Shown here in pieces: positions 411-14,845 of a stretch of DNA of 38,706 nucleotides (its first letter is position 1; the number at the start of each line of letters is the position of its first letter). The translations under genes and the position numbers were made by a program. The notes beneath the pieces were generated by a model. That model searched no databases. It was given only the letters and a program-made list of their open reading frames with translations, and was not told the DNA's origin. The stretch is from contig JAFGXR010000060.1 of NCBI GenBank assembly GCA_016936555.1, positions 1 through 38,706 of the forward strand, given 5' to 3'. Origin of the DNA: Spirochaetales bacterium (GTDB lineage: Bacteria; Spirochaetota; Spirochaetia; DSM-2461).

Positions 411-1265
411 TTATATGGACGAATATAGGCTGAAAGCCCAGTAGAACCCCGCGAGGCAATCCCGGCCCGATGTGGAGCCGTGTCCCGCTGCGGCATGAAC
501 CGCAGATAAAATTTTATTATCTGAATCCGTTGTTTTTATAGTTTCTGCATATTTCAGTATATAGGCAGGAAAACTCCCTCTCAAAGCGGCATAGAGCATG
601 GTTCGCCCCGGAGCCGTCGTTTTTTCGAGTCGCTCTCCGATTTCCTGTTTGTCCGTTTGAAAGGGGCAGATTCCGCATTCCCCGGCCAGAAGTACTCCGG
701 TCAGAAAATCATCTCCAGCCGGTGTAAGCCCCTGTCCGAGACCGACCAGTTTTTCCAGACCCCGAAGAATTCTGTCTTTGCCTGAGATGCAATGGTTTGT
801 GATGTCCCGCGCTTTTCTCTGAAAGATCGTCTCATCTCCGTCCTCATCAGCCAGGAGGGAGAGAAAGCTGTCTCCTTTTTCAAGAATATCCCTGATGATT
901 GCGAACTCTCTGTTTCTGTTCCGTGAGTTGTCCCGCAGAGAGGTAGCGGCTCCTTTCCAGGACGGACAATTTTTATAGGAAATAAGCGTACCGGCCAGGT
1001 TGAGTTTTTCCTCTTCCGTGGAGAAAGCTGAACAGGGATTAGATTTTGCTTCGCCGTCTCCGTCGAAAAGCTCAGGAACCAGCAGACTGAACGCCGTCAT
1101 ATTTTCCCTGTCGGCAATAAGCGACCAGACCAGTCCGCTTTCTCTTTCCAGGAGATTTAGTATACCCCGGTGCCTTGAAAGCTCATCAAATGAAAAGAGG
1201 CCGCTTTGAATAAAACGGCCTCTCAGTTGAGCTTCAATAGGATCAGGCGTCTTCCATTTTGACAT
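411..1265 (-). CDS. allH: DUF2877 protein, AllH/YlbF-like oxamate carbamoyltransferase subunit
   Basis: A 284-residue protein of the DUF2877 family. The signature is GLGQGLTPAGDDFLTG (about residues 175-190) followed near the C-terminus by HGSTSGRD. E. coli YlbF is of similar length and, with FdrA and YlbE, has been assigned to oxamate carbamoyltransferase (AllFGH), which makes carbamoyl phosphate and oxamate from oxalurate in anaerobic allantoin use. Its start overlaps the end of the upstream permease gene by 23 bases and has no clear ribosome site, which suggests translational coupling. The two partner subunits are in the divergent operon at 6398-9375, so the set is split across one control region. 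Whether the substrate here is oxalurate is unknown. Confidence 0.85.
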   Translation of the reverse strand: MSKWKTPDPIEAQLRGRFIQSGLFSFDELSRHRGILNLLERESGLVWSLIADRENMTAFSLLVPELFDGDGEAKSNPCSAFSTEEEKLNLAGTLISYKNCPSWKGAATSLRDNSRNRNREFAIIRDILEKGDSFLSLLADEDGDETIFQRKARDITNHCISGKDRILRGLEKLVGLGQGLTPAGDDFLTGVLLAGECGICPFQTDKQEIGERLEKTTAPGRTMLYAALRGSFPAYILKYAETIKTTDSDNKILSAVHAAAGHGSTSGRDCLAGFYWAFSLYSSI

Positions 1266-2487
1266 CGGGGATGATCAGGTTGAGGATGATTCCCACAACG
1301 GCGGACAGCCCGAGTCCCGCCAGGTTGAAGTTGCCCCAGGAGAACTGAGCTCCGCCCATTCCCAGAACGAGCATGGTGGAGGAGATGATCAGAATCTTGG
1401 GATTGGACAGATTGATCTGAGCCTCAACCATGTTTCTGACACCGATGGATGCAATCATTCCGAAGAGAAGAATGGAGATTCCCCCGATAACCGGACCGGG
1501 AATGGTAACGATGATCGATGTGAACTTGGGAATGAATGCCAGGAAAATGGCGAAGATGGCGGCGATTTCCATAACCACGGGGTTGTAGATTCCCGTCAGG
1601 GCCACGGCTCCGGTATTTTCGCTGTAAGTCGTGTTGGCGGGGCCTCCCATAAGAGCGGAAACCGAAGTGGCGATACCGTCTCCCAGAAGAGTTCTTGTGA
1701 TTCCCGGATCTTTGATAAAGTCTTTGCCGACGACGTTTCCGATAGCCAGAACGTCACCGAAGTGTTCAACCATGGCGACGATGGAGATGGGAACCATGAT
1801 GGATATGGCGTAACCGGAGAACTTGGGTGCCATAAATCCGGGAAGTCCGATCCAGGCGGCTTCCCTGATCGCTGTATAATCGACAACACCGATAATCATG
1901 GAGAAAAGGTAGCCGACGACCAGCGCGAAGAGAACCGGCAGGTTCGAAAGGAACTTCCAGCCGAATTTCGGGAAGGCGATTTTTACGAAAACTCCCGTTG
2001 CGAATGTGATGAGAGCCACGAGCCAGGAGCCGTTTGTGCCGATTTTTTCGACGACGGCGGGAGAATTGACGCCGCTGGCGTTCTGAATGGCCACTCCGGC
2101 CAGCATCAGACCGATGAGAATGATCATCGGGCCTGTTACATAGGGCGGAAGGATTTTATGGAGTGTTTCATACTGTATGAATTTGAAAATGACAGCAACC
2201 ACTACATAAAGCAGACCGGCGATGACGATTCCCCCCGTGGCATAGGCAAGTCCCTGTTCAGCGGAAACAGCGAAAATACCCGGGAGAAAGGCGAAGGAAC
2301 TTCCCAGAAATACGGGAACCTTGGCCTTGGTCAGAATGTGAAAGATGATTGTACCGATACCCGCTGCGAATAAAGTAACGCCAATGTCCAATCCCGTCAG
2401 AAGAGGTACCAGAACGGTGGCCCCGAACATGACGAACGTGTGCTGGATTCCCATGATGACAAGTTTCAAATCCAACTTTTTTTCCAT
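1243..2487 (-). CDS. NCS2/NAT family nucleobase (xanthine/uracil-type) permease
   Basis: A 414-residue membrane protein of the nucleobase:cation symporter-2 family, starting at an ATG with a good GGAGGG ribosome site. Length and residue numbering match UraA closely: VEHFGD places E241, and GGPANTTYSENTG places E290, both substrate-binding positions in UraA. The residue at UraA position 245, histidine in uracil carriers, is aspartate here; aspartate occupies this place in purine carriers such as XanQ and UapA. E290 is uracil-like rather than the glutamine of purine carriers. The binding site is thus mixed, and the substrate is some oxo-purine, oxo-pyrimidine or analogue. It is first in the leftward operon and faces the molybdenum hydroxylase operon. 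Confidence 0.93.
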   Translation of the reverse strand: MEKKLDLKLVIMGIQHTFVMFGATVLVPLLTGLDIGVTLFAAGIGTIIFHILTKAKVPVFLGSSFAFLPGIFAVSAEQGLAYATGGIVIAGLLYVVVAVIFKFIQYETLHKILPPYVTGPMIILIGLMLAGVAIQNASGVNSPAVVEKIGTNGSWLVALITFATGVFVKIAFPKFGWKFLSNLPVLFALVVGYLFSMIIGVVDYTAIREAAWIGLPGFMAPKFSGYAISIMVPISIVAMVEHFGDVLAIGNVVGKDFIKDPGITRTLLGDGIATSVSALMGGPANTTYSENTGAVALTGIYNPVVMEIAAIFAIFLAFIPKFTSIIVTIPGPVIGGISILLFGMIASIGVRNMVEAQINLSNPKILIISSTMLVLGMGGAQFSWGNFNLAGLGLSAVVGIILNLIIPDVKMEDA

Positions 2488-2515
2488 AAAACCCTCCGTG
2501 AAAATAAATTATATA

Positions 2516-2545
2516 ATTCTAGAGACATCTTACCGAAGTTAGCAA
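2516..2545 (-). promoter_or_regulatory. Putative promoter of the permease-allH operon
   Basis: Reading leftward, TTGCTA (2540-2545) and TAGAAT (2516-2521) are separated by 18 bases and lie about 30 bases before the permease start at 2487. A second possible -10, TATAAT, is at 2508-2513. This is a sequence match only, with no data on start sites. Confidence 0.4.
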
Positions 2546-2566
2546 GTAAAAAGCACAATCTTTTTC

Positions 2567-2595
2567 TTGTGAAATCTGAATTTCGCAATTATCAT
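2567..2595 (+). promoter_or_regulatory. Putative sigma-70 promoter of the molybdenum hydroxylase operon
   Basis: TTGTGA (2567-2572) and TATCAT (2590-2595) are separated by exactly 17 bases. The predicted start point is near 2602, about 70 bases before the first gene. A perfect palindrome overlaps that start point, so the promoter is probably repressed by a dimeric regulator. Confidence 0.55.
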
Positions 2596-2600
2596 GAAAA

Positions 2601-2614
2601 TGTAACTAGTTACA
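2601..2614. promoter_or_regulatory. 14-bp perfect palindrome, likely operator
   Basis: TGTAACTAGTTACA is its own reverse complement. It begins six bases after the -10 box of the rightward promoter, so a bound protein would cover the transcription start. A further 10-bp palindrome, ATGTTAACAT, follows at 2625-2634. The form suits a dimeric helix-turn-helix repressor such as a GntR-family protein. No regulator gene adjoins it in this window. Confidence 0.55.
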
Positions 2615-2671
2615 TCCTTGATGAATGTTAACATGGTTCCGGGTATTTGCAAAGAAAAACAGGAGAAGGTT

Positions 2672-3553
2672 ATGTTGAATTTTGACTATCGGAGACCTGA
2701 GTCTCTCGATGAAGCCCTGTCTCTGAGAAAAGAATGGGGCGGAAAATCATCACTGCTTATGGGAGGGACCGATCTCTTCCTGGCTATTGAAGAAGAGGTC
2801 CGCCGTCCGGAGCTGCTGATCGATCTGAAAAAAATAAGAGCACTGTCCGGCCTGGAAGAGAAGGACGGGGCGGTTCATATAGGGGCGGCTGTGACCTACA
2901 GCGAACTGATCCATTCCGATCTGGTTCATCAGAAGCTCCCGGGAATCTGGGAGTCCTCGCGGCTGGTCGCTTCGGTGGGCATCCGCAACAGTGCCACCAT
3001 GGTCGGGAATATCTGCAATGCCGTGCCTTCCGCCGAAAGCGCGACGCCCCTGATGATCCGCGATGCGGTGATTCATATCACTTCGGCTTCGGGGAGCCGG
3101 TCGGTTCCCGCTGTGGAGTTCTTTACAGGGCCGCGGAGAACCGTGGTGAAGGATGATGAGATCGTCACTTCCATATCGGTTCCCCTGATGAAGGGAAAAT
3201 TCGGAGAGTCCTATGTGAAGCTGGGCCGTTACAGGGGTGAGGATATAGCCCAGGTGGCCACGGCGGTTCTGGTCGATGAGAACTGGAATTACAGAATCGC
3301 CTATGGAGCGGTCGGTCCCGTTCCCATGGGGATTCCCGGTGCCGAAGCCGTTCTGAAAGGGAAGAAGCCTGCGGCTGATCTGATTGAGAAAGCAAAATCT
3401 GAAGTTCTGAATACCGTATCTCCCATCGGAGATATCCGGGCCAGTAAGGAATACAGGCTCCATATGTGCGCTGTTATGTTCGAAAAAGCGATAGATGCCG
3501 CTGTTTCCCGCATGGAAACCGGCGCTCCCGCATACGGCGCGAGACTGATCTAG
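2672..3553 (+). CDS. Molybdenum hydroxylase FAD-binding subunit (XdhB/CoxM/CutM type)
   Basis: A 293-residue FAD subunit of the xanthine dehydrogenase / CO dehydrogenase family, which passes electrons from the iron-sulfur subunit to an acceptor such as NAD or ferredoxin. The FAD contacts are recognisable as LLMGGTDL (about residues 29-36) and VGIRNSATMVGNICNA (about 105-120). The start chosen is the ATG at 2672, preceded by AGGAG six bases upstream and followed by LNFDYRRPESLDEAL, the usual family N-terminus; an in-frame ATG at 2618 would add 18 unlikely residues and lie inside the leader. It is the first gene of the rightward operon and lies 12 bases ahead of the 2Fe-2S subunit. Confidence 0.93.
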   Translation: MLNFDYRRPESLDEALSLRKEWGGKSSLLMGGTDLFLAIEEEVRRPELLIDLKKIRALSGLEEKDGAVHIGAAVTYSELIHSDLVHQKLPGIWESSRLVASVGIRNSATMVGNICNAVPSAESATPLMIRDAVIHITSASGSRSVPAVEFFTGPRRTVVKDDEIVTSISVPLMKGKFGESYVKLGRYRGEDIAQVATAVLVDENWNYRIAYGAVGPVPMGIPGAEAVLKGKKPAADLIEKAKSEVLNTVSPIGDIRASKEYRLHMCAVMFEKAIDAAVSRMETGAPAYGARLI

Positions 3554-3565
3554 GGAGGTGAGGAA

Positions 3566-4042
3566 ATGGTTAGGGAAATCGAGTTTACATTAAACGGATA
3601 TCATCAGAAAGTGAGCGTGAAGCCCGGTGAGAAACTTCTCGATGTGCTGCGGGACAAGCTGGGTATCACCAGCGCCAAATACGGCTGCGGGAAAGGGGAG
3701 TGCGGGGCCTGTACGGTCAATCTCGACGGGAAAACCGTCCGTTCCTGTCTGATGTACGCCGTGGAAGCCGACGGCTCTGTCATCGAAACCCTCGAAGGTT
3801 TTCAGAGACTGGGCAAGAAGGAAATTCAGGAGATATACCAGAAACACAATGCCTTCCAGTGCGGTTTCTGCGCTCCCGGGTTCATTCTGAGTACCGATGA
3901 GCTCCTCTCTCAGAACCCGGATCCCGATGAGGAGGAGATCAAGGAAGCCCTTGCGGGCAACCTCTGCCGCTGTACGGGCTACAAAAACATATTCTCAGCT
4001 GTCAAGGAGATGGTTGAAATCAGAAAGGGGAGGGAGTCATGA
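3566..4042 (+). CDS. Molybdenum hydroxylase 2Fe-2S subunit (XdhC/CoxS/CutS type)
   Basis: A 158-residue iron-sulfur subunit with two 2Fe-2S clusters. The N-terminal plant-ferredoxin-like cluster uses C41, C46, C49 and C61 (CGKGECGACT). The C-terminal helical cluster uses C99 and C102 (CGFC) plus C134 and C136 (CRC). All eight ligands are present and length is normal. A strong GGGAGGTGAGG ribosome site precedes the ATG. It carries electrons from the molybdenum site to the FAD subunit. Its stop codon overlaps the start of the large subunit by four bases, so the two are translationally coupled. Confidence 0.97.
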   Translation: MVREIEFTLNGYHQKVSVKPGEKLLDVLRDKLGITSAKYGCGKGECGACTVNLDGKTVRSCLMYAVEADGSVIETLEGFQRLGKKEIQEIYQKHNAFQCGFCAPGFILSTDELLSQNPDPDEEEIKEALAGNLCRCTGYKNIFSAVKEMVEIRKGRES

Positions 4043-6384
4043 GCAAGAACACGAAAGTCGTCGGCCACGATGCGGTCCGAATCGATATGGAGGAGAAGAT
4101 CACCGGCGCCGCGCTCTACACGGACGATCTTCCCTTCGGGCCCAATCTCCTTCATATGAGCGTTCTGGCCAGCCCTCATGCCCATGCGGAAATCCTGAAT
4201 ATCGATACTTCTGAAGCGGAGAAGTTTCCCGGAGTAATGGCCGTGGCCACGGGAAAAGACTATCCCCAGAAATTCGGCCTTTACCTCCAGGACAAGTCGA
4301 TTCTGCCGGTGGACCGGGTCCGCTATGTGGGCGAGCAGGTGGCCGTCGTTATCGCCCGGACCAAGGAGATCGCCGACGAGGGATGCAAGCTGATTAAAGT
4401 GGATTACAAAATCCTCGAACCGATTCTCGATGTCAGGGACGCCTTGAAAGAGGACGCCGTTCTGATCCATCCCGATCTGGGCGATTATCAGGTCATACCC
4501 TGGATCAATCCCCAGCCGGGCACGAATATCTCCCATATCCGGAAAATCCGGAAAGGCGATGTGGAGAAGGGATTCGAAGAGGCGGATTTTATTCTGGAGG
4601 ATGAATACCATGTTCCCCATGTGGTTCACGCCTGCATAGAAACCCATATTTCCGTGGCCCGTTACGATTATACGAAGCGGTTAACCATGTGGAATTCCAC
4701 CCAGTCCCCCCATACGCAGCGCCATATCATGGCCAACGCCCTGGGAATTCCCCATAAGGATATCCGGATCATCGCTCCCTACGTGGGCGGCGGTTTCGGA
4801 GGCAAAGCGGGGATCAGCATGGAAGCCCTCACGGTAGCCTGCCAGAAAGTTCCGGGATATCCCGTGAAGCTCCGCTGGTCGAGAAAAGAGGAGTTCCTCA
4901 ATTCGTCGCAGCGTCAGGAATTGAGGGCCACCGTCAAGATGGGCGTTACAAAAGAAGGGAAGATAACGGCGCTCCGCCATATCATGCACTGGGATGTGGG
5001 GGCCTCGGCCGAATACGGAAACAATGTGGTCAACGCCACGGGATTTTCCGCCACGGGACCCTACTATATCCCCAATGTCAGTATCGATTCGGTCGGTGTC
5101 TACACGAACCATCCGCCCTGCGCCGCCTACCGCGGATTCGGCTATTCGGAATTCCACTTCGGCATCGAAAGCCATATGGACCGGATCGCCAAGGCCATCG
5201 GCATCGATCCTGTCGAATTCCGCCGGATCAACGCCATTAAAACCGATGACGAAGTGGCTTACAAATGCCATATGAACCCCTCGGGCATGCTCGAGTGCAT
5301 CGATAAAGTGGCCCAAGCCATCGAGTGGGGCAAGGAGGAAGTTTCCGACGATCCCGATATCGTTATTGCCAAGGGATTCGCCAGCGCCTGGAAAGCGCCG
5401 GCCATGCCTCCCAATGCGGGGTCTTCCGTATTTATTAAATTCAGTGAGGACGGCAGTATAAACGTACTGGTTTCAGGTATGGAAATCGGGCAGGGGCTTC
5501 ACACCGCCGTGGCGAAATTCGCTTCGGAAATCCTCACGGTGCCCCTGAATAAAATCCGGGTGGAACTGCCCGATACGGACAGGAACCCCTATGAATGGCA
5601 GACCGTGGCCAGCCATGAAACCTGGGAGCTGGGTAACGCCACCATCAGGGCGGCCCGCGATGCCAGAGCCAAGATTTTCGATGTGGTCAGCCGCGCCTTC
5701 CATCTGGAAAAAGAGAGCCTTTATCTGGAAGACGGTAAGGTCAAGGACGACCTCGATCCCGATTTCGCCCTTCCCTTCGAGGATTTCGTTATCACCGGAA
5801 TCCAGACCGAGTTCAACACCTGGGTGGGCGGTCCTATCATGGGTATCGGTTCCTTCATACCCGAGTTCACCAATGCCATGGTCGACCCCGACACAGGCAT
5901 GGGCGGTCATCCCAATGTCCACTATACCGTGGGCGCCGGGGCTGTAAAAATCGAACTGAACAAAAAGACCGGTGTGGTGCGGGTCGTTAAAATGGCCGAA
6001 GGCTTCGACTGCGGAAAAGCCATCAATCCCGACCTGGTGAAGGATCAGATCGTGGGCGGATTCATTCAGGGGCTGGGCACGGCACTCTATGAAGTCTGCA
6101 TCTTCGACGACAAGGGGAAAATGCTCAATACCAATTTCACCGACTACAAGATCCCGACCATTCTGGAAATGCCCGATGAAATGATTCCCATCATTGTGGA
6201 AGTGCCCCAGCCCGACGGTCCCTTCGGGGCCAGGGGTATGTCGGAACACACCATGATCCCCGTCATGCCCGCCGTGGCCAACGCCATCGCCAACGCCATC
6301 GGCCTGAGGATAAAGGATATTCCGCTGACTGCCGAGAAGGTGGCCCTGCGGCCTCTGCAGAAAGATTTTGTGGCTGAAAAATGA
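4039..6384 (+). CDS. Molybdenum hydroxylase large, molybdopterin-binding subunit (XdhA/CoxL type)
   Basis: A 781-residue catalytic subunit that would hydroxylate a heterocycle or aldehyde at an sp2 carbon with oxygen from water. Visible motifs are the cofactor loop YVGGGFGGK (about residues 248-256), AYRGFG (about 363-368, around the substrate-binding arginine of xanthine dehydrogenases), GMEIGQGLHT, and the catalytic glutamate in FGARGMSEH (about E736). It is not a CO dehydrogenase, since the Cu-binding active-site loop is not evident. Its neighbours (carbamoyltransferase subunits, nucleobase permease, cyclase-family hydrolase) suggest a purine- or pyrimidine-like substrate. Because the window also encodes the marker set for selenium-dependent molybdenum hydroxylases, a labile selenium at the Mo site is plausible. 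Exact substrate cannot be read from sequence. Confidence 0.95.
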   Translation: MSKNTKVVGHDAVRIDMEEKITGAALYTDDLPFGPNLLHMSVLASPHAHAEILNIDTSEAEKFPGVMAVATGKDYPQKFGLYLQDKSILPVDRVRYVGEQVAVVIARTKEIADEGCKLIKVDYKILEPILDVRDALKEDAVLIHPDLGDYQVIPWINPQPGTNISHIRKIRKGDVEKGFEEADFILEDEYHVPHVVHACIETHISVARYDYTKRLTMWNSTQSPHTQRHIMANALGIPHKDIRIIAPYVGGGFGGKAGISMEALTVACQKVPGYPVKLRWSRKEEFLNSSQRQELRATVKMGVTKEGKITALRHIMHWDVGASAEYGNNVVNATGFSATGPYYIPNVSIDSVGVYTNHPPCAAYRGFGYSEFHFGIESHMDRIAKAIGIDPVEFRRINAIKTDDEVAYKCHMNPSGMLECIDKVAQAIEWGKEEVSDDPDIVIAKGFASAWKAPAMPPNAGSSVFIKFSEDGSINVLVSGMEIGQGLHTAVAKFASEILTVPLNKIRVELPDTDRNPYEWQTVASHETWELGNATIRAARDARAKIFDVVSRAFHLEKESLYLEDGKVKDDLDPDFALPFEDFVITGIQTEFNTWVGGPIMGIGSFIPEFTNAMVDPDTGMGGHPNVHYTVGAGAVKIELNKKTGVVRVVKMAEGFDCGKAINPDLVKDQIVGGFIQGLGTALYEVCIFDDKGKMLNTNFTDYKIPTILEMPDEMIPIIVEVPQPDGPFGARGMSEHTMIPVMPAVANAIANAIGLRIKDIPLTAEKVALRPLQKDFVAEK

Positions 6385-6397
6385 TGAGAGGAAAGTG

Positions 6398-7957
6398 ATG
6401 ATAAAAAGAATTGTTGAAAAAGACCAGTACTTCGATTCGGTCTTTCTGATGTTGATCAACAGTGAGATCAAGGGACTCGAGGGAGTGAGCGACGCCGTCG
6501 TCTCCATGGGGACGGAAATGAACATTCAGCTCCTGAAGGATATGAATTTCGCCGATGATGCGATACTGGCCGCCACACCGAATGACCTGGTTGTCGCGAT
6601 CGAATGCAAAGATGAAGAGACAGGTGAGAAAGCCGTTGCGGCAGTCTATTCCCTGCTCAATAAGAAGAAAGAGAAGAGCTCCGGTCAGATCTACCGGCCC
6701 CGATCCCTGCAGTCTGCGGTAAAGGAAGAACCGGAAGCCAACCTGGTCCTCATTTCCCTGCCCGGAGAGTTCGCCGCCCGGGAAGCCAGGTCCGCTCTGG
6801 AGAAAGGACTCAACGTCATGCTCTTCTCCGACAACGTTTCAGTGGAACAGGAGATTGCCCTGAAAGATCTGGCTGTCGGGAAGGGGCTGCTGATGATGGG
6901 ACCGGACTGCGGGACCGCTATTATAAACGGTCAGCCGCTCTGCTTCGCCAATGTGGTTTCCCCCGGCGATATAGGAATCGTCGGCGCTTCGGGTACGGGT
7001 ATCCAGGAAGTGACCTGCTGTATCGATACTTTCGGCGGCGGGATCACCCAGGCCATCGGAACGGGAGGGCGCGACCTGAAAGACGCCCGGATCGGCGGAA
7101 AAATGATGCTTCTGGGCATCGAAGCGCTGAAAAACGATCCGGCAACGGAGATTCTCGTGGTTATCTCCAAACCGCCTGCGGCCGATGTGGCGGAAAAAGT
7201 CCTGACGGCTCTGGAAAAAACGGGAAAACCGTCAGTTGTCCATTTTATCGGCCAGGAACCGGAGAAGGGGAGAAAGGGGCTCTACTTCGCATCCAGCCTG
7301 GAGGAGACGGCCAGAATCGCCGTCGATCTTTCGAAAGGGGTAAGTCCCTCTTCATCGACCTTTACCATCCCGGAGGCTGAACTCCGGCAGATTGTCGAGC
7401 GGGAAAGCGCGAAACTGGCCCCGTCCCAGAAATATCTGAGGGGGCTCTATACGGGAGGCACTGTGGCCGATGAGGCTCTGATTCTCTTCGAACGGGAAGG
7501 CGTGACGGTCTATTCGAACAATCAGAAAAAAGAGGAGCTCCAGCTGCCCGATCCCTTCGTCTCGAAAGAGCACACCATCGTGGATCTGGGAGATGATATT
7601 TATACGGTAGGCCGCCCCCATCCCATGATAGATCCCTCGACAAGGGAGGACAGAATCAAAATCGAGGCGGACGATCCCTCTATGGCAGTCATGCTCCTCG
7701 ATATCGTTCTGGGATACGGTTCCCATCACGATCCGGCGGGGGCCATTCTCAAAAGCCTGAAAGAGGCGAAGGCCAAAGCCGAAGCAAGAGGGGGATACCT
7801 TCCTATCGTCGCTTCGGTGGTGGGTACGGAGCAGGATTTTCAGGGTTACGGGGCGACCGTCGCCAAACTGGAATCGATCGGCTGCGTCGTTATGCCTTCC
7901 AACTTCCAGGCATCCATGATGTCCCTTGAAATCATGAAAAAGGCAGGTTCCCTATGA
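6398..7957 (+). CDS. fdrA: FdrA/AllF, succinyl-CoA-synthetase-like carbamoyltransferase subunit
   Basis: A 519-residue FdrA protein, a little shorter than the E. coli homologue of about 555. It has the two-part fold of succinyl-CoA synthetase alpha/beta chains: a CoA-binding-like N-terminal half with MMGPDCGTAI (about residue 165) and GDIGIVGASGTGIQEV (about 190-205), then a ligase-like C-terminal half. In E. coli FdrA works with YlbE and YlbF as oxamate carbamoyltransferase. The start at 6398 follows GAGAGGAAAG; the reading frame opens slightly upstream, but only at a TTG inside the preceding gene. Its stop overlaps the next gene by four bases. Annotation as an acyl-CoA synthetase is common but probably misleading. 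Confidence 0.93.
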   Translation: MIKRIVEKDQYFDSVFLMLINSEIKGLEGVSDAVVSMGTEMNIQLLKDMNFADDAILAATPNDLVVAIECKDEETGEKAVAAVYSLLNKKKEKSSGQIYRPRSLQSAVKEEPEANLVLISLPGEFAAREARSALEKGLNVMLFSDNVSVEQEIALKDLAVGKGLLMMGPDCGTAIINGQPLCFANVVSPGDIGIVGASGTGIQEVTCCIDTFGGGITQAIGTGGRDLKDARIGGKMMLLGIEALKNDPATEILVVISKPPAADVAEKVLTALEKTGKPSVVHFIGQEPEKGRKGLYFASSLEETARIAVDLSKGVSPSSSTFTIPEAELRQIVERESAKLAPSQKYLRGLYTGGTVADEALILFEREGVTVYSNNQKKEELQLPDPFVSKEHTIVDLGDDIYTVGRPHPMIDPSTREDRIKIEADDPSMAVMLLDIVLGYGSHHDPAGAILKSLKEAKAKAEARGGYLPIVASVVGTEQDFQGYGATVAKLESIGCVVMPSNFQASMMSLEIMKKAGSL

Positions 7958-9375
7958 AGGCGGATAAAATAAACAGACTTTTTGAAAGCGACCTGAACGT
8001 TCTGAATATGGGGCTGGAATCCTTCAGCGAGACCCTTTCGGGCCGCGGCGTGAGAAGCACCCAGATCGACTGGACGCCCCCTGCCGGGGGGAAAGCCGAT
8101 CTGATCGAGGCGCTGGATTTTCTGGAGACGAGAAAAGAGGATATTGAGAAGGCCAATGCCAAAGCTCTGGAGATCATACAGAAGGGGAAACCGGAAATCG
8201 TCGATATTCAGATCGCCGGAGAGGTCATACCCGGCATGACAGCGAAAACCGTACTCCACGCCGGACCTCCCGTCACCTGGGAGAATATGTGCGGGCCCAT
8301 GAGAGGGGCTGTTATCGGCGGACTGATTTTCGAAGGGCTGGCGGCGGACCGGGAAGAGGCGGAAAAGATGGCGGCTTCGGGGGAGATCCTCTTCGATCCC
8401 TGTCACCATCACAGCACGGTCGGGCCGATGGCGGGAATCGTCACGGCATCCATGCCGGTCTGGGTTCTGAAAAACAGCGTGTACGGCAATACAGCCTTTG
8501 CGACACTCAACGAAGGGCTGGGAAAGGTTCTCCGCTACGGCGCTTTTTCCGATGAAGTCATCGATAAGCTGCGGTGGATGAGAGACGAACTGGCTCCCAT
8601 TCTCAGAAAAGCCCTGAAGCTTCACGGACCGGTGGATATGAAGACTCTTATCGCCCAGGTTCTGCAGATGGGCGATGAAGGGCACAACAGAAACCGCGCG
8701 GGAACCTCTCTCTTTATCCGGGAGATGGCGCCCCATCTGGTTATGCTCGACGAGGACCGGGAGAAAATTGCGAAAGTGTTTAACTTCATGCACCAGAACG
8801 ACCATTTCTTCCTGAATCTGACCATGCCGACCTGCAAGTGCCTGATCGATGCGGCGCGGGATATCGAAAACAGCTCGCTGATCGTAACCCAGGCGAGGAA
8901 CGGAACGGAATTCGGGATTCAGATTTCGGGACTGGGATCGAGGTGGTTTACCGGTCCGGCTTCCAGAGTGGACGGACTCTATCTGCCCGGATACACCGAA
9001 GAGGACGCGGGGCTCGATATAGGAGACTCGACGATTACCGAGACAGTCGGTATCGGCGGATTTGCCATGGCGGCGGCGCCGGCTATCGTCAAATTCGTCG
9101 GGGGCTCCCCGGAAGACGCCATGAAATTTACCCAGGATATGTACGAGATTACCATGGGGGAAAACTCCGTCTTCCAGATCCCGGCGCTTGACTTCAGGGG
9201 GACGCCGACCGGTATAGACCTGATGAAAATCGCACAGACGGGAATTTATCCGGTCATCAATACGGGCATCGCCCACAAGGATCCGGGTATCGGCATGGTG
9301 GGGGCCGGACTGGTCAAGCCGCCGGTCAACTGTTATGAGGATGCGCTGAAAGCTTTCAAGGAAGCATTGAAATAA
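7954..9375 (+). CDS. allG: DUF1116 protein, AllG/YlbE-like carbamoyltransferase subunit
   Basis: A 473-residue DUF1116 protein, the usual FdrA partner. Characteristic stretches include MCGPMRGAVIGG (about 112-123), CHHHSTVGPMAGIVT (about 150-164) and SGLGSRWFTGPASRVDG (about 326-342). It overlaps FdrA by the four bases ATGA, which fits a stoichiometric complex. In E. coli the homologous protein YlbE is one of the three subunits of oxamate carbamoyltransferase; the third, DUF2877/AllH, is at 411-1265 on the other strand. No carbamate kinase, which would turn carbamoyl phosphate into ATP, is in this window. Confidence 0.92.
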   Translation: MKADKINRLFESDLNVLNMGLESFSETLSGRGVRSTQIDWTPPAGGKADLIEALDFLETRKEDIEKANAKALEIIQKGKPEIVDIQIAGEVIPGMTAKTVLHAGPPVTWENMCGPMRGAVIGGLIFEGLAADREEAEKMAASGEILFDPCHHHSTVGPMAGIVTASMPVWVLKNSVYGNTAFATLNEGLGKVLRYGAFSDEVIDKLRWMRDELAPILRKALKLHGPVDMKTLIAQVLQMGDEGHNRNRAGTSLFIREMAPHLVMLDEDREKIAKVFNFMHQNDHFFLNLTMPTCKCLIDAARDIENSSLIVTQARNGTEFGIQISGLGSRWFTGPASRVDGLYLPGYTEEDAGLDIGDSTITETVGIGGFAMAAAPAIVKFVGGSPEDAMKFTQDMYEITMGENSVFQIPALDFRGTPTGIDLMKIAQTGIYPVINTGIAHKDPGIGMVGAGLVKPPVNCYEDALKAFKEALK

Positions 9376-9394
9376 TTATACGAAGGAGAAAAGA

Positions 9395-10252
9395 ATGAAA
9401 ATTGTTGATTTAACCATTCCATTGGGGATAGGAACACCGCCCTGGCCGACATACGAACCGCTTCAGGTCAAGTATTTCAAGAGACTGGCTCCCAACGGAG
9501 CCAACGGGCAGATCGTGACCCATTCCAACCATATCGGTACCCATCTCGATGGAGAGATTCATTTCTACACTCCGGGAAAAGATATCGCCTCCCTCGATTT
9601 TGACTTTCTGGTACACGAAGGGGTCGTGGTCGACCTTTCGGACTGTGTCGAGGACTACAGCATCTACACCTCCAAAATGGTTGAGGAAAGAGTGGAAGTG
9701 AAAGAGGGGGATATTCTCATCATCAACACGGGTTATCACAAATTCGGATGGGATCAGCCGACCGCCGATGAAGTGCGCTACATGATCAAGCACCCCGGTC
9801 CCGACAGGGAATTCGCCGAGTGGGCCAAGAAGAAAAAACTCCGGTGGATCGGTGTGGACTGCGGAAGCGCCGACCATCCCTTCAATACGAAAATACGCGA
9901 CTGGATGCCCAAAGAGGCGAAGCAGTGCGATGCCTATTTCCAGAAGAACTACGGCAAGGGACTGGAAGAGGTTTTCTCCGATGACAAGTATCAGCTGATG
10001 CACCTGGAGATGTTTAATCACCATATCCTCCACGCCGAGTGCCTTGGCGGCGATATGGACCTTCTCAACAATCAGAGAGTGACCATCGGATGCTTCCCCT
10101 GGCGTTTTGTCGACGGAGAGTCGAGCATTTCCCGTATCGTCGCCATGGTGGACGACGACAAGTACGACGAACTGATGAAAAAGAAAGCCCGGTGCGGCCT
10201 TACTAAATTCGGTGATGTCACCGGCGGCGGAAACGAGTTTCTGCACTCATGA
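9395..10252 (+). CDS. Cyclase-family metal-dependent hydrolase (kynurenine formamidase/isatin hydrolase fold)
   Basis: A 285-residue member of the Cyclase family (PF04199). The metal-binding signature HIGTHLDGEIH supplies H46, H50, D52 and H56, preceded by the usual N-terminus IVDLTIPL. Relatives are kynurenine formamidase and isatin hydrolase, which hydrolyse amide bonds of N-formyl compounds or cyclic imides using Mn or Zn. It has no signal peptide, so it is cytoplasmic. Its place directly after the molybdenum hydroxylase and carbamoyltransferase subunits suggests hydrolytic opening of the hydroxylated ring. A strong ribosome site (GAAGGAGAA) precedes the start. The exact substrate is not predictable. 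Confidence 0.9.
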   Translation: MKIVDLTIPLGIGTPPWPTYEPLQVKYFKRLAPNGANGQIVTHSNHIGTHLDGEIHFYTPGKDIASLDFDFLVHEGVVVDLSDCVEDYSIYTSKMVEERVEVKEGDILIINTGYHKFGWDQPTADEVRYMIKHPGPDREFAEWAKKKKLRWIGVDCGSADHPFNTKIRDWMPKEAKQCDAYFQKNYGKGLEEVFSDDKYQLMHLEMFNHHILHAECLGGDMDLLNNQRVTIGCFPWRFVDGESSISRIVAMVDDDKYDELMKKKARCGLTKFGDVTGGGNEFLHS

Positions 10253-10273
10253 TTTTTTTTAAAGGAGAAAATT

Positions 10274-10963
10274 ATGGCTATTGATAAAATGGAACAATCA
10301 TTAAGACCTCCCCAGCTGGATCTTAAACCCTTTCCCGCCAAGATTATTACTCTGGCCAATGGAGAGGAAATGGTGGTCCGCGAAGTGAAGCGCGAGGAAG
10401 TCGGAGTCCTTCTGGGAACCATTCAGCCCCTTATGGGCGTTCAGAAAGATTTTTATGATATCGTCGCATCCAGAATGTATGCGGAAATACTCGGATGGTT
10501 CGAATACCGTGTGGCCAACGAGTTCGTCCTGGTCGGAGCGATCAACGGAGAAATAGCCGGAATCGTCAACAGCCGCCTGATCGACGGAAAAACGGGTATG
10601 AGCTATCACACCATGACCATCAAGAGAGGCCTCAGGATCGGGGCACAGCTGTTCGCCGCTAAAATGGAGCACCATATCGATATTCTGGGCAATGACGAAG
10701 TTCATATCGTGGCGGAAAGCCCCAACGGATTCAAGAGATGGATGATCGAATACGCTCTCGAAGACAGATCATCCCGGTATCCGGCTCTTCATCACGAGCT
10801 GGGGGGAGTCCCCACTTTTACGCTGACCAGAGAGCTTTGGGAACGGGTCAAAGCTGACAAATGCACGGGAACCCGTCCTGTGTCTCCGGAAAAACTGGCT
10901 ACGGCAGATAAGCTGAAAATGCCGTCCGAGTATCCCCAGATTCCGGGATTCAAGAGAGGCTGA
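10274..10963 (+). CDS. Uncharacterised protein with a GNAT-like acyltransferase core
   Basis: A 229-residue cytoplasmic protein that I do not recognise by name. The middle (about residues 85-165) resembles a GNAT N-acyltransferase: a strand FVLVGAINGEIAGIV, a following beta strand, a helix after RGLRIGAQLF in the position of the acyl-CoA pyrophosphate loop, and a last strand VHIVAESPNGFKRWM. The N-terminal 35 and C-terminal 55 residues are proline-rich extensions without clear domains. It lies between the cyclase and the thiolase-like gene, two bases before the latter, so it is firmly part of the operon. It could transfer an acyl group to a pathway amine, or be a structural relative with another role. 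A good AAAGGAGAA ribosome site precedes it. Confidence 0.6.
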   Translation: MAIDKMEQSLRPPQLDLKPFPAKIITLANGEEMVVREVKREEVGVLLGTIQPLMGVQKDFYDIVASRMYAEILGWFEYRVANEFVLVGAINGEIAGIVNSRLIDGKTGMSYHTMTIKRGLRIGAQLFAAKMEHHIDILGNDEVHIVAESPNGFKRWMIEYALEDRSSRYPALHHELGGVPTFTLTRELWERVKADKCTGTRPVSPEKLATADKLKMPSEYPQIPGFKRG

Positions 10964-10965
10964 AT

Positions 10966-12174
10966 ATGAGAAATGTGTCCATTGTCGGAATCGGGCACAC
11001 CGTTTTCGGCAATCTGAGTGATTTTGATCTTGTCGATGTTATGGCTTTCGCCTCGGGCAATGCTCTGGACGATGCGGGAATCCGCGAGGACCGGAAGATT
11101 ATCGAGCAGGTTTTCGTGGCCAATATGGGAGGAGGGATTATCAATCACCAGACGGGGATCGCCTCCTCTCTGGTCAGCCGGATGGATATGGAACCGGCCA
11201 TGGCCGAACTGGTGGAAAACGGGCCGGCCAGCGGGGCGAGTGCCGTGAAGTTGGGTTATATGGCCATTGCCAGCGGCATGGTCGATGTGGTTATGGTTAC
11301 CGGCGGGGAACTGATGCGATCGGTTACGGGCTGGGAGGGGACCGACTTCGTCGCGTCTCTTCTCCATCCCGAGGCTGAGTACAACTACGGACTGACGCTC
11401 CCGGCATACGGTGGCATGTTCACCCGCATATATATGGAACGCTATGGACTTACCGAACGGGACCTGGGGCTCATCGCCGTAAAGGACCATCAGAACGGGG
11501 CCAAGAATCCCTTCGCCCATGTGCGGGTACCCTGCACGATCGAAGCGATTCATGACAGCGAGAATGCCCATGTTATCAACAACTATGTGGCGGAACCCTT
11601 GAGAATGTACGGCATGTGTCCCGTTTCCGACGGAGCGGCCTCGTTGATTCTCTGCGCCGAGGATTCGCCGAAAATGAAGTATTTTACCAAACAGACTCCG
11701 ATTCGCATCACCGGGATCGGGTCGGCTACGGACACCCACTGCGTTCATAACCGGAAGGATCCGCTCGTTCTCGATGCGGTCCGTCTGGCGGCGGAACGGG
11801 CCTATGCCATGGCGGGGCTGAAAGCGGAGGATATCTCCTTTGCGGAGCTCCACGATGCCTTTGTCATACTGGAACTGGCCATATCCGAGGAAGTCGGCTT
11901 TTTCGAACGGGGCAAATCGGCTGAGGCTTTGCGCAACGGCGTGACAGCTATCGACGGCGCCAAGCCGATCAACACATCGGGAGGGCTCAAGTCCAAAGGC
12001 CATCCGGTCGGCGCTACCGGTGTCTCCCAGGTTTTCGAGCTGGTCAAACAGCTCCGGGGGCAGGCGGAAAAAGAAGGCCGTCAGGTTAAGAATGCGAAAC
12101 ACGGCATGGCTGTGAATTTCGGGGGGTTCGGCAATAATGTGGTGGCGGTTATCTGCTCAAGGAGGGACGCATGA
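10966..12174 (+). CDS. Thiolase-fold protein (SCP2-thiolase-like) lacking the nucleophilic cysteine
   Basis: A 402-residue member of the SCP2-type thiolase group. It keeps the LHDAF motif (H296) and the C-terminal GGLKSKGHPVGATG (H346). At the place of the catalytic cysteine, usually read as (E)xxCASG, it has ENGPASG, so the nucleophile is replaced by proline P87; the codon is ccg. Ordinary Claisen/thiolysis chemistry through an acyl-enzyme is therefore unlikely. The next gene, overlapping by four bases, encodes a DUF35 protein, the standard partner of this thiolase group. Thiolase-fold enzymes with DUF35 partners include sterol side-chain aldolases such as Ltp2, so a retro-aldol-type C-C cleavage is an attractive but unproven alternative. 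Confidence 0.88.
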   Translation: MRNVSIVGIGHTVFGNLSDFDLVDVMAFASGNALDDAGIREDRKIIEQVFVANMGGGIINHQTGIASSLVSRMDMEPAMAELVENGPASGASAVKLGYMAIASGMVDVVMVTGGELMRSVTGWEGTDFVASLLHPEAEYNYGLTLPAYGGMFTRIYMERYGLTERDLGLIAVKDHQNGAKNPFAHVRVPCTIEAIHDSENAHVINNYVAEPLRMYGMCPVSDGAASLILCAEDSPKMKYFTKQTPIRITGIGSATDTHCVHNRKDPLVLDAVRLAAERAYAMAGLKAEDISFAELHDAFVILELAISEEVGFFERGKSAEALRNGVTAIDGAKPINTSGGLKSKGHPVGATGVSQVFELVKQLRGQAEKEGRQVKNAKHGMAVNFGGFGNNVVAVICSRRDA

Positions 12175-12563
12175 TTGATTTCAGTGCCTACGGGGTCAAG
12201 ACTCCCGAAGTTAAGGCAGTCAAATGTCCGTCCTGCGGAAAACTGCATTATCCCGCTCCCATGATCTGCAATAAATGCGGCGAGAGGAGAGACCCTTCCG
12301 GTGTCATTTTCAAGCACTGGGAGACCGTTTCCCTCTCGGGAGAATGCACGTTACTCGCCTGGACCAGAGTGTATGCTCTGCCCGACGGATTGGATATGCA
12401 GTATCTCCTCTTCGGAATTGTGGAATTTCCCAACGGCCTTCGGGCCAGTGGAAGACTCGAGGTCGATCAGCCGGTTACGGGTATGAAGGTGAACGCCCGG
12501 GCTGAGACGATGGACAACTCCAAAGGGAAGGAGTTCGACGGGTTGATTTTCGGGGATTTATAG
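12171..12563 (+). CDS. DUF35 zinc-ribbon / OB-fold protein, partner of the thiolase-like protein
   Basis: A 130-residue DUF35-family protein. The N-terminal rubredoxin-like zinc ribbon has two pairs, CPSC (residues 19-22) and CNKC (33-36). The C-terminal part (about 50-130) is the acyl-CoA-associated OB fold. Such proteins bind to SCP2-like thiolases and shape their substrate tunnel. The start overlaps the thiolase stop by ATGA, as expected for a complex made in fixed ratio. It is the last gene before a strong terminator. Confidence 0.92.
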   Translation: MIDFSAYGVKTPEVKAVKCPSCGKLHYPAPMICNKCGERRDPSGVIFKHWETVSLSGECTLLAWTRVYALPDGLDMQYLLFGIVEFPNGLRASGRLEVDQPVTGMKVNARAETMDNSKGKEFDGLIFGDL

Positions 12564-12581
12564 AACACTCGTTTACTATCG

Positions 12582-12616
12582 GCGGAGCTGCAGTAAGAAT
12601 GCAGCTCCGCTTTTCT
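12582..12616 (+). terminator. Rho-independent terminator of the molybdenum hydroxylase operon
   Basis: A perfect 11-bp stem, GCGGAGCTGCA (12582-12592) paired with 12600-12610, with a 7-base loop GTAAGAA and followed by TTTT. It lies 19 bases after the DUF35 stop codon. There is no T-run on the opposite side, so it acts on rightward transcription; the convergent YhcH gene ends just beyond it. Confidence 0.9.
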
Positions 12617-12620
12617 GATT

Positions 12621-13079
12621 TTACATTTTAATTTTTACAACGAGTTTCTTCACTCTACAGGACTCTTTCCCTGGAATTGTACATCCGGGCATATGTGCTT
12701 CGCCGGGGTAGAATATGGAGTAATACCCGGCATTGAGCCGGCACTGACTTCGTTCCGTCGGCTTGTATTTTTCAATATCTTTATCCAGTCTGTAGGGTTC
12801 CTGAACTGTCAGATCTTCCTTTTCGCCAAACCCTATCATTTCAAATCCGCTTACAATATACTGAATATCTATGTATTGCCTGTGGGTTTCAAAGAATTTT
12901 TCGTGATAATCGGCTGTATCGTATTCCTGAATAAGAATAAAAAGATTCTCTCCCTCCAGTTCGTATCGTCCCGGTTCTTTTAAATACAAATCTGTATTAC
13001 GGATATAATTGAAAGCCTTTTTAAAGGATGGATGGAAATCTTCATATCGCTCTGAAATTTTTATATGATCAATAATCAT
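12621..13079 (-). CDS. YhcH/YjgK/YiaL-family protein (sugar anomerase-like)
   Basis: A 152-residue cupin-like protein of the YhcH/YjgK/YiaL (DUF386) family. The signature appears as HRQYIDIQYIVSGFEMIG (about residues 66-83) and FYPGEAHMPGC (about 123-133), supplying metal-binding His and Glu residues. Characterised relatives act on sialic acids or related sugars as anomerases, and YiaL sits in a ketogulonate gene cluster. It is the last of three leftward genes with KDG kinase and KDPG aldolase, so a role in handling sugar-acid anomers is likely. An AAGGAGGAT-like ribosome site precedes the ATG. Confidence 0.88.
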   Translation of the reverse strand: MIIDHIKISERYEDFHPSFKKAFNYIRNTDLYLKEPGRYELEGENLFILIQEYDTADYHEKFFETHRQYIDIQYIVSGFEMIGFGEKEDLTVQEPYRLDKDIEKYKPTERSQCRLNAGYYSIFYPGEAHMPGCTIPGKESCRVKKLVVKIKM

Positions 13080-13091
13080 ACAATCCTCCTT

Positions 13092-14186
13092 CTAACGCTT
13101 AACCCGGCCGGAGGAATTTCCTCTCATTAGGGAAATCACTTCATTTCGGGTCGAGTAATTGAAATCCCCTTTGATGGAGTGGCAGAGACAGGAGGCTGAA
13201 ACGGCATAGGACAGGGCTTCCTTCATATTGTCTTTAAACTCATTATCGGTCAGGGCGTAAATCAAACCGGCTGAAAAGGAATCACCTCCTCCCACTCTGT
13301 CGACAATAAATTTGATCTGATAAGGTTTGTATTCTCCCTCAGACATAGGGGCGAAAGATGCTGAATCGTTTTTGCTGTCATAGAGCATGGCACCCCAGTT
13401 ATTATGACTCGCCGAAAGACTTTCTCTAAGGGTAATGGCTACTTTACCGACATTTGGAAACTGTTCAACAATTCTGCGGGCAACTTCGGGGTACCGTTCG
13501 ATTTCAAGATGTCCGCTCTCCACATCGCTATTTTCTGTTTTTATTCCAAGGATATCCCATGCGTCTTCTTCATTGCCTATAACCACATCTACATAAGGAA
13601 GCATTTTCCGCATGGTTTTTTCCGCCAGATCCCGAGGTGTGAGAGATTTGTCCCATCTCCATAGCTTCTTCCTGAAATTCAGGTCGCAGGAAACGGTGGC
13701 ACCCTGCTCTTTAGCCTTTTTTACTGCCATAAGAGCTGCTTCTGCCGCATTAACAGAAATGGCAGGGGTAATCCCGCTGATGTGAAACCACTGCGAATCA
13801 CTGAAAATAGCATCCCAGTTATAGCTCTCTCCGGACATTTGGCTGACAAGAGAACCTTCCCTATCATAAATAACGTTGCTGGGACGTTGATTTGCCCCCG
13901 TTTCCAGAAAATACAGACCCAGACGGCCTTCTGCCCGGATAATGAACGACGTATCAATCCCGAACCGACGGACAGAATCGAGACAGGCTTCCCCCAGATC
14001 ATTTTCAGGCAGAGCCGTGACATAGCGGGTTTCCCTTCCCATCATCTGCAATGATGCGGCTACGCTTCCTTCAGCCCCGGCAAAGGAAATCTGCAGGTTT
14101 CCCGGCATTGACTGGCGGAATCGCATAAATCCTTCCGGTTCGATCCGGCCCATTATCTCTCCGAAACAAACAACCTTTTTTCCCAT
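13092..14186 (-). CDS. kdgK: 2-keto-3-deoxygluconate kinase, PfkB family
   Basis: A 364-residue PfkB/ribokinase-family kinase. The N-terminus GKKVVCFGEIMGRIEP, the loop FAGAEGSVAASL (family pattern GGaxxNvA) and the C-terminal anion-hole motif VGGGDSFSAG with catalytic D302 are clear. It would phosphorylate 2-keto-3-deoxygluconate to KDPG, which the adjacent aldolase cleaves. The start at 14186 is preferred: the sequence TAATG joins it to the aldolase stop with one shared base, and GAGGTAAGAGG precedes it. A longer frame runs back into the aldolase gene but has no family similarity there. Confidence 0.88.
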   Translation of the reverse strand: MGKKVVCFGEIMGRIEPEGFMRFRQSMPGNLQISFAGAEGSVAASLQMMGRETRYVTALPENDLGEACLDSVRRFGIDTSFIIRAEGRLGLYFLETGANQRPSNVIYDREGSLVSQMSGESYNWDAIFSDSQWFHISGITPAISVNAAEAALMAVKKAKEQGATVSCDLNFRKKLWRWDKSLTPRDLAEKTMRKMLPYVDVVIGNEEDAWDILGIKTENSDVESGHLEIERYPEVARRIVEQFPNVGKVAITLRESLSASHNNWGAMLYDSKNDSASFAPMSEGEYKPYQIKFIVDRVGGGDSFSAGLIYALTDNEFKDNMKEALSYAVSASCLCHSIKGDFNYSTRNEVISLMRGNSSGRVKR

Positions 14187-14845
14187 TATCCTCTTACCTC
14201 CCGCAGTATTCTGTATGCTTCGGCGGCATTTTTTCCGATTGTCTTCCAGTCTTCTGCCTGAATGAGAGGCCTCGGTGCTATCCATGAGCCGCCCAGAGCG
14301 AGAACTTCTTCCATTTCCAGATATTCGTGTATATTGTCGGGTTTCAATCCGCCGAGGGGAATATAGGAAAGATTCAGAAAACTGTAGGGGGCGTTTATTC
14401 CTTTCAGATATTTAACTCCCCCCATGGCTTCGGCATGGAAAAACTTCAGAACGTTACAACCATTTTCAACAGCCCCTTCCAGTTCCGAGGGAGTTGAAAT
14501 CCCCGGGCTGAAGGGAAATTTCTCCGATGCTGCTTTCTCGACAACCCGCCGATTGAATCCCGGTGCAACACCAAAGGCGGCTCCTGCCGAATTGACTTCT
14601 ACTACCTGTGCAGGAGAGAGAACAGTTCCTGCTCCTGCCATAATCTCCGGTACTTCTCTGCGGATGCGTCTGAGTGATTCAAGTGCTGTTTCAGTTCTGA
14701 GAGTCAGTTCAATAGTATTCACACCATTTTCCAGCAGAGTTTCTGCCAGGGGTACAGCCATATCGGGATTATCGATTATCAATACAGCGATAATCCCGGC
14801 TTTTTTCAGATTTCTCTTCATTTCCTCCGGTATGGCTACTTCCAT
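14186..14845 (-). CDS. eda: 2-keto-3-deoxy-6-phosphogluconate / 4-hydroxy-2-oxoglutarate aldolase
   Basis: A 219-residue class I aldolase splitting KDPG into pyruvate and glyceraldehyde 3-phosphate. The Schiff-base lysine is K134 in VLKFFHAEAMGG and the catalytic glutamate E46 in IELTLRT. Where the family usually has KFFPAE, this protein has KFFHAE. The ATG at 14845 is chosen because TTGGAGGACAAG lies just before it; the frame could also open at that TTG. It heads the eda-kdgK-yhcH operon and diverges from the IclR gene, whose product probably controls it. Confidence 0.93.
   Translation of the reverse strand: MEVAIPEEMKRNLKKAGIIAVLIIDNPDMAVPLAETLLENGVNTIELTLRTETALESLRRIRREVPEIMAGAGTVLSPAQVVEVNSAGAAFGVAPGFNRRVVEKAASEKFPFSPGISTPSELEGAVENGCNVLKFFHAEAMGGVKYLKGINAPYSFLNLSYIPLGGLKPDNIHEYLEMEEVLALGGSWIAPRPLIQAEDWKTIGKNAAEAYRILREVRG

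Follow-up and report, generated by a model that had tools for sequence, protein, structure and literature searches.

A candidate operon for oxidative, phosphorolytic pyrimidine catabolism in a Spirochaetales bacterium and its relatives in many bacterial phyla

In the oxidative route of pyrimidine degradation barbiturate is formed from uracil by hydroxylation at C6. Aerobic actinomycetes use uracil dehydrogenase, barbiturase and ureidomalonase, the last of which hydrolyzes ureidomalonate to malonate and urea. Barbiturate is opened to 3-oxo-3-ureidopropionate (PMC3758960), and barbiturase and the oxidative breakdown of pyrimidines have been described for a limited set of bacteria (PMC4051656). 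The three-subunit oxamic transcarbamylase AllFGH of Escherichia coli is proven to convert oxalurate to oxamate and carbamoyl phosphate (PMC11326118), and in nitrifiers AllFGH was noted together with biuret and triuret genes (PMC12625717). Here we present a gene cluster from a Spirochaetales bacterium (assembly GCA_016936555.1, contig JAFGXR010000060.1, positions 1 to 38,706; the whole stretch of 38,706 nucleotides is called the window), in which AllFGH-type genes are joined to a molybdenum (Mo) hydroxylase, a cyclase-family hydrolase of PF04199 and a trio of genes for a GNAT-like, a thiolase-like and a DUF35 protein. The cluster is probably an operon for oxidative, phosphorolytic pyrimidine catabolism, with uracil as the most likely substrate; the assignment to uracil and barbiturate is made because a true barbiturase, as judged by sequence, replaces the cyclase in the corresponding clusters of Acidimicrobiia.

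As proposed, the first two reactions and the intermediate ureidomalonate are the same as in the aerobic actinomycete pathway, and the Acidimicrobiia relatives of the cluster use a sequence-typical barbiturase. In contrast to that pathway, most members of the cluster would open the ring with the unrelated PF04199 enzyme, and ureidomalonate would undergo phosphorolysis by AllFGH, not hydrolysis. The E. coli system, AllFGH(K), consists of the same three families, with carbamate kinase in several of the homologous operons; ureidomalonate is oxalurate plus one CH2, so AllFGH of the cluster should, by analogy, yield malonamate and carbamoyl phosphate. The cluster differs from the E. coli system by the absence of allantoin genes, by a separate AllG clade and by the link to a Mo hydroxylase, a ring-opening enzyme and the coenzyme A (CoA)-related trio. 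Cyanuric acid hydrolase operons on plasmids of Aminobacter and Klebsiella likewise combine a ring-opening amidohydrolase with FdrA, AllG and carbamate kinase, but their amidohydrolases are of the cyanuric acid hydrolase type (SRG), and neither a Mo hydroxylase nor the GNAT, thiolase-like and DUF35 genes accompany them. The gene order fdrA, DUF1116, cyanuric acid hydrolase, carbamate kinase is seen in Aminobacter (L219 4570-18382, with DUF2877 nearby) and in Klebsiella (L220 4494-12649), which suggests that AllFGH serves on these plasmids to regain carbamoyl phosphate from a breakdown product of cyanuric acid, too.

The genome of the window (G000; the window is its contig C103) has a size of 4.73 Mb and is of Spirochaetaceae type, with metagenome-assembled Spirochaetaceae genomes as nearest named relatives. 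Domain searches confirmed all the genes that a first-pass annotation of the DNA had named, at their positions and in a divergent arrangement. The plus-strand operon (2669-12563) is compact, adjacent genes overlapping by 4 nt or being separated by 2-21 nt, and is ordered MoFAD, MoFeS, MoCo, FdrA, AllG, Cyclase, GNAT, thiolase-like, DUF35; AllH and the NCS2 permease are divergent. The features are:

411-1265, minus strand: AllH/DUF2877, third subunit of the AllFGH-type carbamoyltransferase (PF11392, 73.7 bits)
1243-2487, minus strand: NCS2 nucleobase permease, uracil-permease-like (PF00860, 282 bits)
2669-3553, plus strand: FAD subunit of the Mo hydroxylase, starting at 2669 or at an upstream TTG at 2618 (PF00941 and PF03450)
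3566-4042, plus strand: 2Fe-2S subunit of the Mo hydroxylase (PF01799 and PF00111)
4039-6384, plus strand: molybdopterin (Mo) subunit of the Mo hydroxylase, proposed uracil C6-hydroxylase (PF02738/PF20256/PF01315)
6395-7957, plus strand: FdrA/AllF, starting at GTG 6395 or ATG 6398 (subfamily model PRK06091, 530 bits, cut-off 433; PDB entry 3dmy, FdrA, 306 bits)
7954-9375, plus strand: AllG/DUF1116 (PF06545, 329 bits)
9395-10252, plus strand: PF04199 cyclase-family hydrolase, put forward as a second barbiturase not homologous to the known one (PF04199, 110 bits)
10274-10963, plus strand: GNAT-fold protein, proposed CoA-dependent malonamate acyltransferase working in the breakdown direction (GNAT fold of a structure model)
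10966-12174, plus strand: thiolase-like protein lacking the catalytic Cys, a proposed decarboxylase of malonyl thioesters (PF00108/PF22691)
12171-12563, plus strand: DUF35/ChsH2-type zinc-ribbon OB-fold partner of the thiolase-like protein (PF12172, 27.8 bits; PF01796, 20.7 bits)
12581-12611, plus strand: intrinsic-terminator-like hairpin at the operon end (12 pairs, 8 of them G-C, T-rich tail)
24904-29561, minus strand: YedF, SelD, CsdB-like and YqeB, maturation genes of selenium-dependent Mo hydroxylases (TIGR03527, 195 bits; TIGR03309, 341 bits)

A profile search with the GNAT-like protein in contigs of one genome per species delivered 286 related stretches, of which the best 80 were studied; many of these loci are metagenome-assembled, and contig ends restrict statements of absence. 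The 80 loci originate from Spirochaetota, Bacillota, Coriobacteriales, Chloroflexota, Actinomycetota, Planctomycetota and others, the carriers among the Bacillota including Clostridium ragsdalei, C. magnum, Moorella stamsii, Anaerocolumna aminovalerica and Flavonifractor. Behind the GNAT gene a thiolase-like gene is found in 80 of 80 loci and a DUF35 gene in 78 of 80. Where at least 8 kb are available on both sides (29 loci), AllG, FdrA and the Mo subunit occur together in the same 25 loci, accompanied by the cyclase in 23 and by a barbiturase in the remaining two. A gene order unique to this genome, which would have spoken against the reading of the first-pass annotation, is excluded by the recurrence of the set in 25 of 29 long loci. 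Of 98 related genomes 11 carry AllG (at least 67% identity), and these 11 and no others carry the cyclase (at least 76%; Fisher p 9e-15, without correction for phylogeny). Because the set recurs across phyla and AllG and the cyclase share the same 11 of 98 genomes, the association of these genes is far from chance. The fullest operon is that of C. ragsdalei (L057) with PucR, AllH, FdrA, AllG, Cyclase, GNAT, thiolase-like, DUF35, MoFAD, MoFeS, MoCo, NCS2, carbamate kinase and 3-hydroxyacyl-CoA dehydrogenase. At 15 loci a PucR-type regulator is encoded, and a 3-hydroxyacyl-CoA dehydrogenase-type gene is the last gene of the Clostridium operons (L042, L048, L057, L060).

The cyclase carries the PF04199 metal-binding motif HxGTHxDxxxH, with H46, G48, T49, H50, D52 and H56 conserved at 97% or more in 57 sequences. 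In the Actinomycetota locus L084 the cyclase is missing and a PF09663 ring-opening amidohydrolase is found instead (L084 1439-2533). The best solved relative of this protein is 5hwe, named barbiturase in the PDB and presumably from Rhodococcus, with 541 bits versus 315 bits for the top cyanuric acid hydrolase. Barbiturase is inactive on cyanuric acid, and the arginine at the position of Arg188 in the Azorhizobium hydrolase is kept throughout the family outside the Bacillus and barbiturase subgroups (PMC4051656). For this position the same study names glutamine in barbiturase, whereas in our alignments both 5hwe and the L084 protein possess asparagine (S-N-G) where the hydrolases have S-R-G. 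All 21 barbiturase-type sequences share the segments SN, SSVASCSSG and FVSVxAxHQGP, the hydrolases showing SRG, SSVASTSAG and YVSGGxEHQGP; two plasmid-borne proteins of the cyanuric acid hydrolase type lack the barbiturase-type active-site segments. By these sequence features the replacement gene of the Acidimicrobiia is a true barbiturase. Barbiturase-type proteins, that of L084 included, score well above the cut-off of the NCBIfam model NF052395 (cyanuric acid amidohydrolase), which is considered over-broad; automatic annotation by this model will hide barbiturases.

Among 20 genomes carrying the trio PF09663 occurs only in the four from Actinomycetota, each time in an operon Bar-AllH-FdrA-AllG, and a cyclase homologue was not found in these four, which possess the Mo hydroxylase, AllFGH and the trio. 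The cyclase was found in every other AllG-carrying trio genome tested; trio genomes that lack AllG contain neither cyclase nor barbiturase. A draw of 296 genomes from the Acidimicrobiia contained PF09663 in 20. Of 15 further PF09663 loci two are too short to judge and 12 have the barbiturase beside FdrA and usually AllG; most of those 12 loci with enough flank also carry GNAT and thiolase-like genes and a Mo hydroxylase whose Mo subunit is 57-61% identical to that of the window and belongs to the same clade. A close cyclase is absent from 16 further Acidimicrobiia genomes with PF09663, with one unrelated match of 29%. Conversely, PF09663 was not found in 29 of 30 cyclase-type or trio genomes, among which G000 has the cyclase in the corresponding operon place. 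The simplest reading of this exchange is that cyclase and barbiturase share one task, the opening of barbiturate. On a replicon of Embleya (L217 7988-13095) PucR-like and class III CoA-transferase-like genes, a weak MmdA-like match, carbamate kinase and barbiturase are adjacent, with a Mo hydroxylase and an NCS2 permease nearby.

From gene context, enzyme replacement, sequence and one structure model we infer the following pathway. The NCS2 permease would bring in uracil, or possibly a related pyrimidine such as thymine, and the Mo hydroxylase, whose Mo cofactor probably contains selenium, would convert uracil to barbiturate by hydroxylation at C6. The PF04199 cyclase, as functional substitute for the PF09663 barbiturase, would hydrolyze the barbiturate ring to ureidomalonate, which AllFGH would cleave phosphorolytically to malonamate and carbamoyl phosphate in a reaction of the same type as that from oxalurate to oxamate. 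Carbamate kinase would yield ATP, NH3 and CO2 from carbamoyl phosphate. Finally, the GNAT protein, the Cys-less thiolase-like protein and DUF35 would convert malonamate and CoA to acetyl-CoA, NH3 and CO2; most likely a reverse N-acyl transfer by the GNAT protein would give malonyl-CoA, to be decarboxylated by the thiolase-like/DUF35 pair. The reactions from the Mo hydroxylase to carbamate kinase are quite likely to run as proposed, while the conversion of malonamate is the weakest step and is put forward tentatively. Import, hydroxylation, hydrolytic opening and carbamoyl transfer had been arranged in this order in the first-pass annotation, and the comparative evidence speaks for it; the purine- or pyrimidine-like substrate named there can be narrowed to a pyrimidine through the barbiturase that replaces the cyclase. 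It had given no role for the GNAT, thiolase-like and DUF35 proteins and had left the substrate unfixed.

Several observations weigh against this assignment. The spirochaete genome G019 (6% contamination), the one exception among the 30 genomes mentioned above, has the cyclase cluster together with a split, stand-alone barbiturase-type gene (L224 6377-7099, L225 1-273). The AllG proteins linked to a barbiturase all fall into a single clade (support 100/100), therefore the exchange of cyclase and barbiturase may be one single event, and the enzyme replacement could have been accompanied by a shift of substrate. Some homologous Mo subunits (clade B) are just 36-49% identical to that of the window, and substrates may thus differ between loci. 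Carbamate kinase is absent from the window operon. Four genomes possess the trio but lack AllG, cyclase and barbiturase alike; the trio is thus not confined to the pathway.

All three subunits of AllFGH (FdrA/AllF, DUF1116/AllG and DUF2877/AllH) are encoded in the window, AllH being next to the permease on the other strand; in homologous loci AllH lies in the operon, contiguous with FdrA and AllG. In the AllG tree the proteins of the cluster (71 rows) are separated from the AllG of E. coli, the AllG of Aminobacter and two AllG proteins from outside trio loci (fork support 94/92, root uncertain). Carbamate kinase is found within homologous operons at seven loci or more, including L042, L057 (C. 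ragsdalei), L062 and L208, which supports the transfer of the carbamoyl group to phosphate suggested in the first-pass annotation. The genome of the window has two arcC genes elsewhere. In the sister genome G002 (L011 1963-3084) a gene for a dihydroorotate-dehydrogenase-like 4Fe-4S protein adjoins AllH.

The GNAT-like protein has no match in Pfam or NCBIfam. Its structure model (pLDDT 92.6, pTM 0.90) has a GNAT fold, matching PA3270 (1yre) with Z 14.4 and a root-mean-square deviation of 3.1 over 168 residues. A relationship to malonyl-CoA decarboxylase, suspected from the motif S-P-x-G-F-x-x-W, found no support, as neither database gave a match and solved malonyl-CoA decarboxylases are not among the listed structural matches (Foldseek, VIA-align), but it may exist all the same. 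In 79 of 79 sequences of the thiolase-like protein Pro87 occupies the position of the nucleophilic Cys and Asn384 that of the second catalytic Cys, whereas His346 is retained; residues 296-299 are an invariant HDAF in place of YDHF or YDCY/F. A classical thiolase or an aldolase of the Ltp2/Sal type was rejected on account of these missing catalytic residues. The thiolase fold with a DUF35 partner is shared with Ltp2-ChsH2, Sal-Shy, archaeal thiolase/HMG-CoA synthase and PhlABC, and the lack of the nucleophile with the Cys-poor thiolase-like protein TbSLP; the cluster protein differs from all of these by Pro87, Asn384 and HDAF instead of the Cys pair or YDxF/Y and by its GNAT partner. KSQ and chain-length-factor proteins decarboxylate malonyl thioesters. 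For TbSLP, a thiolase-fold protein without nucleophile, slow decarboxylation of malonyl-CoA is reported, and YDxF/Y is the catalytic motif of the steroid aldolases Ltp2 and Sal (PMC12329534).

The trio might instead perform an aldol, acyl-transfer or biosynthetic step on another acyl-CoA, malonamate being hydrolyzed by an amidase. We regard this as a serious possibility that nevertheless falls clearly short of an even chance. It would suit the four genomes that carry the trio without AllFGH, some of them with a nitrilase and a symporter, and the known thiolase/DUF35 pairs that act as aldolases or acylases; an amidase-signature protein is encoded at two loci (L209, L214), with malonamidase E2 (140 bits) among its solved relatives. 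Most operons are without any amidase, and the protein of L209 and L214 was not accepted as a malonamidase, since GatA scores equal to malonamidase E2 and the match is not diagnostic. The loss of both the catalytic Cys and the YDxF/Y aldolase motif speaks against this alternative. Moreover, the GNAT gene tracks AllG and the cyclase: of the 98 related genomes, 10 of the 11 with AllG and cyclase have a GNAT gene of type I or II, and none of the 87 others does. Type II GNAT proteins (about 36% identical) lie beside a carboxyltransferase of the MmdA type (methylmalonyl-CoA decarboxylase alpha; TIGR01117, 735 bits, under its cut-off) and a PNPOx-like gene (L017 8631-17667, L018, L019), and the three genomes concerned, which belong to one family and are not independent, have a window-like operon without GNAT, thiolase-like and DUF35 genes where the contig permits a view. 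Formation of malonyl-CoA by the GNAT protein and its decarboxylation by the thiolase-like/DUF35 pair would explain this swap with an MmdA-type decarboxylase. At L017 the type II GNAT gene is also near dihydropyrimidinase and PreA/PreT-like genes. Two of the four genomes with the trio alone are Coriobacteria (L053, L056) and have PucR, a nitrilase and a sodium symporter beside it; as a speculation, these loci would suit another source of malonamate, e.g. cyanoacetate.

With the same enzyme logic another ring could be degraded, such as thymine, hydantoin (parabanate to oxalurate) or another cyclic ureide, AllFGH acting on the matching carbamoyl amide. Oxalurate is the one substrate proven for AllFGH, cyclase-family hydrolases open several kinds of rings, the clade B Mo subunits are distant, and a type II GNAT beside an MmdA-type protein would be suitable for thymine, too. 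Another ring is nevertheless unlikely: the replacing enzyme is a sequence-typical barbiturase and neither a hydantoinase nor a cyanuric acid hydrolase, the operons contain no dihydropyrimidinase or hydantoinase, and the permease is closest to uracil permease. Its top NCBIfam model is PRK10720 (uracil permease, 347 bits, under the cut-off), followed by RutG (260 bits) and PbuX (208 bits). For the Rut pyrimidine pathway the permease reaches 260 of the 759 bits of the RutG equivalog, and the cluster is without rut genes.

A purine route, with a Mo hydroxylase of the xanthine dehydrogenase type and the remaining enzymes acting on ureides derived from allantoin or urate, would draw on the frequent service of NCS2 permeases and Mo hydroxylases to purines and on the role of AllFGH in allantoin degradation, but it is very improbable and was dismissed as the principal explanation: the allantoinase-type genes whose absence the first-pass annotation had pointed out, as well as ureidoglycine and allantoate genes, are neither found in the window nor conserved with the cluster, AllG falls outside the E. 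coli AllG clade, the window hydroxylase scores far under the cut-off of the xanthine dehydrogenase equivalog (485 versus 780 bits), and in the substrate loop the cluster enzymes have A where E. coli XdhA and XdhD have Q.

For the Mo subunit, for which the favored assignment is uracil C6-hydroxylase, the closest solved enzyme is 4-hydroxybenzoyl-CoA reductase, followed by CO dehydrogenase and the quinoline and nicotinate enzymes. At the GGGFGxK loop the window protein reads KAG, not KQD, and is thus without the Glu/Gln of the xanthine dehydrogenase type in the substrate loop. YqeB, SelD and YedF, the genes that mark a selenium-dependent Mo hydroxylase, are present in the genome and in the same window as the hydroxylase, and in the sister genomes G001 and G002 the selenium genes adjoin the cluster directly 3' of the operon. 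The selenium genes at 24904-29561 probably serve the Mo hydroxylase of the window, which by this gene content probably has a selenium-containing Mo cofactor.

No published description of such a pathway and no proven substrate for such loci were found in the open-licence literature, in agreement with the first-pass annotation, which had named the pathway a candidate undescribed one; nor did the literature searched yield a gene for uracil dehydrogenase. Relative to known oxidative pyrimidine catabolism the proposed novelties are the ring-opening enzyme, the phosphorolytic instead of hydrolytic second split and the CoA module. In its widest form the proposal would be an undescribed, energy-conserving oxidative uracil fermentation common to anaerobes of many phyla, with a uracil dehydrogenase gene, a second barbiturase family without relationship to the first, a ureidomalonate-phosphorolyzing AllFGH and a CoA-dependent system from malonamate to acetyl-CoA; all of this together is conceivable, at a little below an even chance. 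If true, anaerobes would have a route to energy from the pyrimidines of RNA and DNA, with one ATP from carbamoyl phosphate plus acetyl-CoA, and candidate genes for uracil dehydrogenase would be at hand. FdrA/DUF1116/DUF2877 proteins outside allantoin clusters would receive a new assignment, and PF04199 cyclases, an unnamed GNAT family and a cysteine-free thiolase/DUF35 family a specific function. The same operon is present in the culturable C. ragsdalei, C. magnum, A. aminovalerica and Flavonifractor.

The region 24904-33406 of the window holds, beside the selenium maturation genes, a molybdate/tungstate-type ABC transporter and MoeA; a Moco riboswitch (RF01055, 56 bits) is located at 29581-29701, upstream of the transporter. 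Next to the selenium genes a tandem hemerythrin-domain protein (23938-24807) is retained throughout the genus. The stretch 12621-22947, which separates the operon from the selenium genes, encodes KDG kinase, KDPG aldolase, YhcH, an IclR regulator, a two-component system and a tripartite tricarboxylate transporter. These genes are not at that place in G002, where DUF35 directly precedes the hemerythrin-like and YedF genes.

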